The notes below the pieces were generated by a model that saw only the letters and a list, made by a program, of their open reading frames with translations, was not told where the DNA came from and ran no database searches. Shown one piece after another: positions 40,240 through 46,285 of a DNA stretch of 64,000 nucleotides. Where the stretch lies: NCBI GenBank assembly GCA_003221895.1, contig QHUJ01000119.1, positions 1 to 64,000 on the forward strand. Direction: 5' to 3'. This DNA comes from Gemmatimonadota bacterium. GTDB taxonomy: Bacteria > Gemmatimonadota > Gemmatimonadetes > Gemmatimonadales > GWC2-71-9. How positions within the stretch are numbered: position 1 is the stretch's first letter; every line of letters begins with the position of its first letter. The position numbers and the translations under genes were made by a program.

Positions 40240-43037
<2,798 letters not shown>

Positions 43038-43050
43038 GTTGGCGTCCCAT

Positions 43051-43548
43051 ATGACCGCACCCGGAATCGTCAGGCAATTGCATGCGAGCCTAGCGGCGCA
43101 CGCGCCCGACCAGCTCGTCGCGATTCTCCAGGAAGCCGGCTACGCGGCCGGTGAAGGCCTGTATCGGAGCTTCGCGGCGACGAACAATCCCGCCGACCTC
43201 GATGCCGACATGCTGGCCGAGACGTTGTCGGAGTTTTTCACGAGCGGCGGATGGGGAAGCGTCACGATTACGCCGGTCGGCACCGGCGCGCTGGCGCTCG
43301 ACTCCGTCGACTGGGTCGAAGCGGAGCCCGGTGCGGCGCAATCCCCGATGTGCTTCTTCTCGGCGGGCATGCTGGCGGACTTCTTAGGACGGCTGTCCGA
43401 CGAGACCGTCGCGGTGCTCGAAGTCGAGTGTCGCAGCCGAGGGGACGCCCGCTGCCGCTTCTTATCGGCGACCCCCGATGTGCTGGAGCGCGTCTACAAC
43501 GACATGACGGCGGGGAGGAGCTACGCGGAGGCGTTGGGCGCCGCGTAG
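43051..43548 (+). CDS. V4R (4-vinyl reductase-like) domain protein
   Basis: 165 residues made essentially of one V4R domain. The C-terminal metal/ligand motif C-RSRGDAR-C-RF is present, with the preceding FFSAGMLADFLGRL helix. V4R domains bind small molecules, often hydrocarbons or tetrapyrrole intermediates; standalone copies have no fixed role. ATG 43051. Its TAG is supplied by a 28-bp palindrome. Confidence 0.85.
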   Translation: MTAPGIVRQLHASLAAHAPDQLVAILQEAGYAAGEGLYRSFAATNNPADLDADMLAETLSEFFTSGGWGSVTITPVGTGALALDSVDWVEAEPGAAQSPMCFFSAGMLADFLGRLSDETVAVLEVECRSRGDARCRFLSATPDVLERVYNDMTAGRSYAEALGAA

Positions 43549-43572
43549 GGGCGCAGCATGCTGCGCCCCTAC
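43545..43572. repeat. Perfect 28-bp palindrome carrying both stop codons
   Basis: Perfect inverted repeat with 14-base arms (GTAGGGGCGCAGCA and its complement), centred between 43558 and 43559. The left arm holds the TAG of the V4R gene and the right arm the TAG of the convergent tldE gene. Probably a bidirectional terminator and/or a dispersed REP-like palindrome. Confidence 0.85.
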
Positions 43573-44909
43573 CTACGGGCCACGCTGACTCCTTCGAGTA
43601 GTAGCGACGGGGACCACCGCGCCCCCAGCCACCGCCCGTCGGTTCCAAATCCCCCAATCTTCTTCAGGAGATCGTAGGCGTTGCCCGCGACGGCCGCGTC
43701 CTTCACGCGTCCGGTGATCTCGCCGCGCTGCACGCGATAGGCGAGGCCCACGGGGTGGCTGAAGACGCCGCTGATCACGTTGCCCTGCCCTACGCCGATC
43801 AAGTCGTCGACGACCAGGCCATCGTCGATGTCACCGATGAGACCGCCCCCGAGGACTGAAGTGGACGCGTTGCTTCCGCGCGGACCGTCGGCGGACATGC
43901 GGAAGAAGATGTTCGTATAGCCGATCCGCGGTTTGCCGAAGAAGCCGCGTTGTCCGTTTCCCGTACTTTGCGTCTTCGCGCGCGCGGCGGTTTCGAGATC
44001 GTAGACAAAGCGTCCCACGCTGCCGCGCTCCACCAGTCCCGTCGCGCGGGACGGCACACATTCATCATCGATGGGCCGCGACGCGGGGCGCCCTGGCGTC
44101 AGCGGATCGTCGACAATCGACAAGCGTTGGTCGAACATCAGCTCCCCAACCTTTCCCGCGAGCGGCGAGCTGCCCTGCAGCACGGTCTTGCCCGAGAGTG
44201 CCTGCTCGAGCGGCAGTACCACCGCGGCGAGCCCGGCGGGCGTGAAGACGACGGGAAGCGCGCCATCAGGCGGCGCAACCACGGTCAGTGCCGCAGTGAG
44301 TCGCGTCTCGATCGACCGGACCAGCGCCTCCAGATCGGCGTCGCCCGGCAGGTCCGCACCGACGTAGTGATCGTAGATCATCAGGACGTCGTCACCCGCA
44401 ATGCGGGTGACGTCTGCCGCCACCGCGATGGCGGTGCCGCGGTATTCGCCTCGGGCGCCGGCGCTGTTGCCCACGGCCGTGTCGGCGATTTCGCGCTCGA
44501 CCGACACATTCACCTGACAGCCGGGCCGCTCCAGCCGCTCGACGAGCCCCTTGCCCAGGCGGATCAAGTCGTCGAGTGACGCGTTGGCGGTGCGATCGAA
44601 GAAGGTGGGAATCGGCGGGAGCTGTGATGCGGCGACCGCGGGGAATGCGAGCTCGACCGACTCGCCAAGCTCGGCGGAGGCGCGGGCGCGCGTGACGAGC
44701 TCCTCCGGGTCCGGCGCCGCCGACGTGGTGCCCGCGACTCCCATGCGGCCTCCGGCGATGACCCGCAGGTTCACCCCGGCTTCTTCGGAAATGCCCGCCG
44801 CCTTGAGCCGGCCAGCCTCGAATGCGACCGCCGTTTGCTCCTCGCGCCGCCACAGCGCGTCGGCGTTATCGACGTTGCGCCGGGCGGTCTCGAGCAGGCG
44901 ATCGATCAC
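43569..44909 (-). CDS. pmbA: TldE/PmbA-family protease-like subunit
   Basis: 446 residues. PmbA/TldE fold: an N-terminal half (FEAGRLKAAGISEEAGVNLRVI), then GVFSHPVGLAYRVQRGEITG near the C-terminus. It lacks the HExxxH motif, as expected for the TldE partner. GTG 44909 overlaps the tldD stop (GTGA). Together with TldD it forms a heterodimeric metalloprotease acting on unfolded peptides or peptide antibiotics. Confidence 0.92.
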   Translation of the reverse strand: MIDRLLETARRNVDNADALWRREEQTAVAFEAGRLKAAGISEEAGVNLRVIAGGRMGVAGTTSAAPDPEELVTRARASAELGESVELAFPAVAASQLPPIPTFFDRTANASLDDLIRLGKGLVERLERPGCQVNVSVEREIADTAVGNSAGARGEYRGTAIAVAADVTRIAGDDVLMIYDHYVGADLPGDADLEALVRSIETRLTAALTVVAPPDGALPVVFTPAGLAAVVLPLEQALSGKTVLQGSSPLAGKVGELMFDQRLSIVDDPLTPGRPASRPIDDECVPSRATGLVERGSVGRFVYDLETAARAKTQSTGNGQRGFFGKPRIGYTNIFFRMSADGPRGSNASTSVLGGGLIGDIDDGLVVDDLIGVGQGNVISGVFSHPVGLAYRVQRGEITGRVKDAAVAGNAYDLLKKIGGFGTDGRWLGARWSPSLLLEGVSVARR

Positions 44910-46285
44910 ACGTCGCCCCCAATCAGCGCTTCTTCGATGCGGACGTGCGGCGCCCCTTCGGTGACGGGCAGGGGAAACTGGCCGCCTTTGCCGCAGCCGC
45001 CGCCCATCTGGTTCCACGTGAAGTCGCCCGCGATATGGTCGATGCGGTCGAGCGTCTGGAACAGATTGCCGGCGAGCACCACGTCCTTCACCAGCTCGGC
45101 GAGATGCCCGTCGCGGATCATGTAGCCCCATCCGGCCGTGAACGAGAAATTCTCGAGCATCGTCTGCCCGCCGAATGCGCCGCATGCGTAGACGCCGAGC
45201 TTCAAGTCGCTGATCAAATCCTGAAATCCGACGCCGGCCTTGCCCGGTGCGATGTAGGTGTTCGTCATCCGCACGATCGGCGGATGACGGAACGAAATCG
45301 CCCGGGCGTTGCCCGTCGGCCGCTCGCCAAGCTTCGCTGCGGTTTCCCGCGAATGGAGCCGGCCGACGAGAATGCCCTCGCGGATGAGCGGCGTGTCCTG
45401 GGTGGGTGTGCCTTCGTCATCATAGGGCAGCGTTCCGCGCAACCCGCTCTCCGCGCCGTTGTCGCCGGCGTTCAGCACCGGTTTGCCGAACCGCCGCCCG
45501 AGCGTCATCATCTCCCGCGCCTGCGGATTCTCGTAGACGAAGTCAGCTTCGGACAGATGCCCGAACGCTTCGTGGATGAAGACGCCGGCGAGCTCATTGT
45601 CGAGGATGACGGGGTAGCTGCCGCCCCGCACGCGTGGCGCGTCGAGCAGATCCACCGCCCGCTGCGCGGTGACGCGAAAGCGATCCTCGAACTCCTGCAC
45701 GCTCCGCCACCCTTTGCGCAGCCCGATCGACTCGAGCCCCTTCTCGATGGTGCCGTTGCGCCGGCCGATCGCGGTCCCCGAGACGACGACCTCGGGGCGC
45801 AGCTGGTAGAGGGCGGTGCCCTCGGAGTTGACGTACCAGACTTCCGAGACCTCGTCGCGATAGCTCGATTGTGTGTCGACGATCGCGTTCGACACCGCGA
45901 GCATCGCGCCATTGTAGGTCTCTAGAAGCGTCTTTTTCTCGGCGAGCGAGATTCCGCGCACGTCACCGTCGAGATCGAGCGCGGCATCGGCTACCTGCGG
46001 AGCGGTATCGGCCAGCCGGATCGGCTCGGTGAGCCGCACGGCGCGCGACAGCTCGTGCGCCCGGCGAACCATGACGGGCAGCTCGTCGAGCGACGTAAAC
46101 GACGCGATGCCCCACCCGTACCCTTTGTTGAGCGCGCGCACGAAGCCGCCCTGGTCTTCGCTGACGGTGGCGGTCTCAAGCCGCCGCCCGCGGAACGCGA
46201 CGGAGGAGCTCCAGGTGCGTTCGACGCGAATTTCAGTGTAATCAGCCCGGGACTGCGTGACCGCTGCGGCGAGACGATCCTTCAA
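44906..46285 (-). CDS. tldD: TldD-family metalloprotease
   Basis: 459 residues, the catalytic partner of TldE. Zinc motif HEAFGH with downstream Glu/Asp, and GGGCGKGGQFPLPVTEGAP near the end, typical of TldD. TTG start 46285 overlaps the preceding stop as TTGA. The operon is phosphoribosyltransferase-tldD-tldE. Confidence 0.94.
   Translation of the reverse strand: MKDRLAAAVTQSRADYTEIRVERTWSSSVAFRGRRLETATVSEDQGGFVRALNKGYGWGIASFTSLDELPVMVRRAHELSRAVRLTEPIRLADTAPQVADAALDLDGDVRGISLAEKKTLLETYNGAMLAVSNAIVDTQSSYRDEVSEVWYVNSEGTALYQLRPEVVVSGTAIGRRNGTIEKGLESIGLRKGWRSVQEFEDRFRVTAQRAVDLLDAPRVRGGSYPVILDNELAGVFIHEAFGHLSEADFVYENPQAREMMTLGRRFGKPVLNAGDNGAESGLRGTLPYDDEGTPTQDTPLIREGILVGRLHSRETAAKLGERPTGNARAISFRHPPIVRMTNTYIAPGKAGVGFQDLISDLKLGVYACGAFGGQTMLENFSFTAGWGYMIRDGHLAELVKDVVLAGNLFQTLDRIDHIAGDFTWNQMGGGCGKGGQFPLPVTEGAPHVRIEEALIGGDV

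Follow-up and report, generated by a model that had tools for sequence, protein, structure and literature searches.

A 28-bp palindrome that supplies the stop codons of two convergent genes in a Gemmatimonadota bacterium is most probably a double-foot GTAG REP

We analysed a 64,000-nt stretch of a Gemmatimonadota genome (contig QHUJ01000119.1, positions 1 to 64,000; hereafter the window), in which two convergent genes meet at the 28-base sequence GTAGGGGCGCAGCATGCTGCGCCCCTAC, identical to its own reverse complement. The features at this junction are as follows.

43051–43548, plus strand: V4R-domain gene (PF02830, E = 5.6e-13)
43545–43572, no strand: perfect 28-bp palindrome GTAGGGGCGCAGCATGCTGCGCCCCTAC, in all probability a double-foot GTAG REP (single-stranded DNA hairpin, z = −3.4)
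43546–43548, plus strand: TAG within the palindrome, stop of the V4R-domain gene (the ORF 42940–43548 ends there)
43569–43571, minus strand: TAG within the palindrome on the opposite strand, stop of tldE (the ORF 43569–45185, minus strand, ends there)
43569–44909, minus strand: tldE/pmbA-like metalloprotease gene (PF19289, the PmbA/TldD C-terminal domain, E = 4e-52; PF01523, E = 3e-8)

The V4R-domain gene comes after ligA (ORF end at 43037), and the ATG at 43051 is its likely start, judged from the translated ORF; the tldE/pmbA-like gene likely starts at the GTG at 44909, overlapping an upstream tldD-like gene. Because the element starts with GTAG on both strands, it supplies TAG as a stop to both genes (43546–43548 on the plus strand, 43571–43569 on the minus strand); we thus confirmed both the perfect palindrome and the double stop use described by the initial annotation. 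From its base composition, 64 kb would be expected to contain about 0.001 perfect 28-bp palindromes, and, with up to 3 mismatches allowed, GTAGGGGCGCAGCATGCTGCGCCCCTAC was the sole match in the window, with 0 matches in 100 shuffles. The window copy folds into a hairpin as single-stranded DNA (z = −3.4), and it has the ends of a double-foot REP (5′ GT[AG]G, 3′ C[TC]AC) with a fully paired stem.

We then counted copies of the palindrome in related genomes. The window's own genome (G000; a 3.7-Mb assembly in 250 contigs, 97% complete), searched with the 26-base core of the palindrome, contained 14 sites with 3 or fewer mismatches, 8 of which were exact over the core. At 2 or fewer mismatches, eight of nine same-genus genomes contained between 7 (G006) and 83 (G008) sites, and the ninth (G004) contained zero; the distribution in the remaining family was patchy. 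These counts bear out the earlier suggestion of a dispersed palindrome, as 14 sites in one 3.7-Mb assembly are not a single copy, and the many dispersed copies are those of a GTAG REP.

The genomic context of the copies was determined from 1.03 Mb of G002 plus fetched loci, using a simple purpose-written gene caller trained on G002 in place of published annotation. The G002 sequence contained 29 copies (4 or fewer mismatches): 11 between convergent genes, 11 between tandem genes, 0 between divergent genes and 7 inside genes. Half of the intergenic copies (11/22) thus lay in convergent gaps, against a 15.5% share of intergenic bases (p = 1.7e-4), and divergent gaps, with a 27% share, had no copies (p = 0.001). 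Measured against the share of intergenic bases, this shift towards 3′ ends is significant, and the enrichment between convergent genes that had been proposed for checking was found. The 133 distinct exact copies with GC-rich flanks, collected from genus genomes and other loci with related genomes included, were distributed similarly: 46 convergent, 54 tandem, 4 divergent, 25 inside genes and 4 at contig edges. At 100 of 146 adjoining gene 3′ ends in this set, the copy lay within −4 to 30 bp, most copies falling a few to about 30 bp beyond an existing stop. By our gene caller, therefore, the element lies mainly outside genes near 3′ ends and is rare in divergent gaps, as GTAG REPs are. The bases adjoining the copies showed a weak preference for a purine at −2 and for G or T at −1.

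The palindrome's TAG was the exact stop codon at 16 of the 146 adjoining 3′ ends, and only two of the 46 convergent exact copies were used as a stop by both genes; one G002 near-copy (C87:98439) also served as the stop for both of its neighbours. The statement that a single element ends two genes is accordingly true at the window site but describes a rare arrangement elsewhere. Ending two genes is not what the element is built for, and 25 of the 133 exact copies are inside genes in an open frame. Those in-gene copies strongly favour the cysteine-free one of the two stop-free frames, with 23 of 25 read as VGAQHAAPL and 2 as RGAACCAPT; with an element length of 28 bp, a bare insertion would shift the reading frame.

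We also found the element associated with transposase genes. In three close relatives (G007, G002 and G008) a small ORF that matches the REP-associated tyrosine transposase (RAYT) is flanked on both sides by copies of the palindrome, which in G007 and G002 are 746–816 bp apart; a RAYT flanked by the same REP is the arrangement of a REPtron. The G007 protein matched the RAYT model NF047646 of NCBIfam with E = 2.7e-19 and 69.5 bits, below the curated cut-off of 80, and PF01797 with 27.7 bits, above the cut-off of 23. Direct reading of its ORF revealed HFH (HUH motif), YVRNNP (Y---NP motif) and WQRNYYDRIIR, containing the W/Q/R residues of GTAG recognition, and the transposase at a Desulfuromonas locus (L086) has WQRNYYEHVIR at the corresponding residues. 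The transposases of G007, G008 and G002 are 65–68% mutually identical, and their gene bodies have no internal palindrome. RAYT ORFs from Desulfuromonas (L086), two Gemmatimonadetes (L145, L176) and Wallbacteria (L135) contain the palindrome in frame, encoding VGAQHAAPL between the HUH and tyrosine motifs. Other PF01797 proteins in the family (for example, L033–L047) have no flanking element; only one RAYT subfamily is therefore linked to it. A phmmer search against solved structures gave no match at E ≤ 0.01. Searches of the window's own genome with PF01797, a protein query and NF047646 found no RAYT, and the element is an orphan in this 97% complete, 250-contig assembly unless a RAYT gene falls in an assembly gap.

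The exact 28-mer was found in records whose labels span about 15 bacterial phyla, including Chloroflexi, Bacteroidetes, Planctomycetota, Acetothermia, Armatimonadetes, Acidobacteria and Calditrichaeota, as well as Desulfuromonas/Geobacter, Myxococcota, Nitrospirae, Rokubacteria, SAR324, Wallbacteria and Cyanobacteria. Among the copies listed from a Bacteroidetes MAG, nearly all share the inner sequence of GTAGGGGCGCAGCATGCTGCGCCCCTAC, and an Armatimonadetes MAG contains this inner sequence alongside other variants; the occurrence across phyla is therefore not merely stray contamination. A RAYT match was present in 13 of 15 tested genomes of other phyla with the element. The homologues from Desulfuromonas and other Gemmatimonadetes (L086, L145, L176) are 45–47% identical to that of L277, so that transposases of just this identity carry or flank an identical 28-bp REP in different phyla. 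One tentative reading, on which we would not bet, is that about 15 phyla share the exact 28-bp REP as a mobile hairpin with transposases only about 45% identical, which would mean either that recognition of the REP is conserved far more strongly than the transposase itself or that REPtrons cross phyla, and that the in-gene copies represent an accepted protein insert (23 of 25 in one frame). The exact 28-mer also occurs on six viral-contig stretches (L300–L305), where host contamination of the contigs is possible; phages or prophages may ferry the palindrome between hosts.

The inner sequence of the element proved variable. A search of viral contigs in which only the outer GTAGGGGC and GCCCCTAC were fixed recovered 121 distinct GTAGGGGC-N12-GCCCCTAC copies with 71 different inner 12-mers; 70 of these copies were perfect palindromes, and the inner forms in other Gemmatimonadota genomes include ACGGCATGCCGT and ACGACATGTCGT. 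Pairing is retained while the stem sequence varies, as in GTAG REPs; the conserved property is therefore a hairpin with GTAG at its foot.

Comparison of the V4R/tldE junction among sister species (using hand-checked unoccupied sites alone, as automatic detection was noisy) revealed a palindrome in G000, G008, G005 and G009. The aligned G006 junction has neither palindrome nor hairpin; its two genes have overlapping stops (TTAA), and tldE still ends in SVARR, an identical C-terminus followed by a stop of its own. The G008 copy has a damaged right arm (CCCCTAC to GCTTAC) and retains the tldE stop, with TAG changed to TAA. The element has therefore been gained or lost at this site, and the G006 and G008 junctions indicate that it is the stop codon that persists, not the palindrome. 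In G007, G002 and G003 (L188, L187, L189) the junction is occupied by another inverted repeat, ggtgtcaggtgtctgg ... cctgacaccagacacctgacacc, so this convergent junction attracts or tolerates several repeat families.

Taken together, we assign a probability of about 0.93 to GTAGGGGCGCAGCATGCTGCGCCCCTAC being a double-foot GTAG REP, a non-autonomous mobile hairpin of the GTAG superfamily linked to a RAYT. The RAYT (TnpA-REP), an HUH tyrosine transposase, would recognise the GTAG foot of the hairpin in its single-stranded form, then cut and join it, spreading copies that would survive mainly where they do little harm, either just past gene ends or in frame in flexible loops. A copy sitting on the final codon in the correct frame supplies a TAG stop, as this one does for both genes here. 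Stop provision is a side effect of a mobile element with GTAG ends settling where genes end; we infer that a RAYT transposes the element and that it has no selected role at the V4R/tldE site.

The strong hairpin and the enrichment between convergent genes are also what a bidirectional transcription terminator or a 3′-end stabilising hairpin, selected at convergent gene ends, would give, and the other inverted repeat at the same junction in G007, G002 and G003 fits such a role. We consider this explanation unlikely, since 54 exact copies are tandem and 25 are inside genes, the aligned G006 junction lacks a hairpin, the G008 arm is damaged, and a location at 3′ ends is expected equally if insertions survive only where harmless. 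An intrinsic terminator, a GC-rich stem followed by a T-run, was likewise rejected: no T-tract follows the stem and no terminator-like site was found. The initial annotation's probable transcription end for both genes thus finds no backing, and termination at the palindrome is possible but unsupported.

A selected double stop-codon cassette, as that annotation's title might imply, would account for the two stops on the palindrome here, for the second dual case among the 46 convergent exact copies and for the G002 near-copy at C87:98439. The use of TAG at only 16 of 146 adjoining 3′ ends contradicts this as a general function, and tldE of the unoccupied relative G006 ends in the same residues, with a stop of its own; the idea could hold only site by site, and we give it hardly any credence. 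A site for a DNA-binding protein of nucleoid or gyrase type, organising the chromosome as proposed for E. coli BIMEs, may be suggested by analogy, as E. coli REPs bind gyrase, Pol I and IHF according to the summary in PMC6006769. Copy number among congeners is patchy (0 in G004, 7 in G006, 83 in G008), which indicates no essential genus-wide role and leaves this reading highly improbable.

The interpretation as a double-foot GTAG REP agrees with published systems. In the account of Di Nocera et al. 2013 (PMC3733652), GTAG REPs are located chiefly between convergent or unidirectional genes, about 20 bp or less from 3′ ends; their termini often give the TAG stop of flanking ORFs, and some are inside genes. 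Our element resembles them in its GTAG end, 20–40 bp stem-loop, dispersal, location at convergent and tandem 3′ ends, occasional in-gene copies and RAYT linkage, but both of its ends are paired, whereas GTAG is unpaired and at one end only in those REPs; the string GTAGGGG was absent from the searchable text of PMC3733652. TnpA-Y1 subclass 2.4 is described as having double-foot REPs and REPs placed in frame within its transposase genes (Quentin et al. 2018, PMC6006769); it corresponds to RAYT group 4 of Bertels et al. (PMC6006769). The 5′ GT[AG]G and 3′ C[TC]AC ends and the patchy occurrence over phyla match this subclass, as do the HUH, Y---NP and W/Q/R residues read in the G007 and L086 ORFs and the in-frame REP within the transposase genes of L086, L145, L176 and L135; the assignment is made by these traits and not by the subclass HMMs of PMC6006769, an article that does not mention Gemmatimonadota. 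As described in PMC3733652, Rickettsia palindromic elements (RPE) are likewise palindromic repeats in frame in coding genes. Since earlier work covers the provision of stops, the position at 3′ ends, insertion into genes, the double-foot form and the link to RAYT (PMC3733652, PMC6006769), the essentials of our finding are already known; what is new is this REP member and its host group.

For work on the spread of REPs and on their reshaping of gene ends, Gemmatimonadota thereby gain a clearly defined and useful REP/RAYT set, in which close relatives have between 0 and 83 copies and differ in the sites that are occupied. The identical REP across about 15 phyla is the part that specialists might pursue.

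Two further observations concern individual copies. In G008, G005, G006 and G007 (L183, L184, L186, L188), tldE itself contains a second, in-frame copy of the palindrome in a variable loop before LGGGLI, where it adds GAQHAAPL-like residues; the window's tldE has no such copy, and that of G003 contains a degenerate version (GAQQAAPL). At positions 1500–1570 of L008 (G000:C215), the right end of the palindrome and the next 16 bases (CCCCTACaatcccgtcatttcg) are tandemly duplicated beside a copy.
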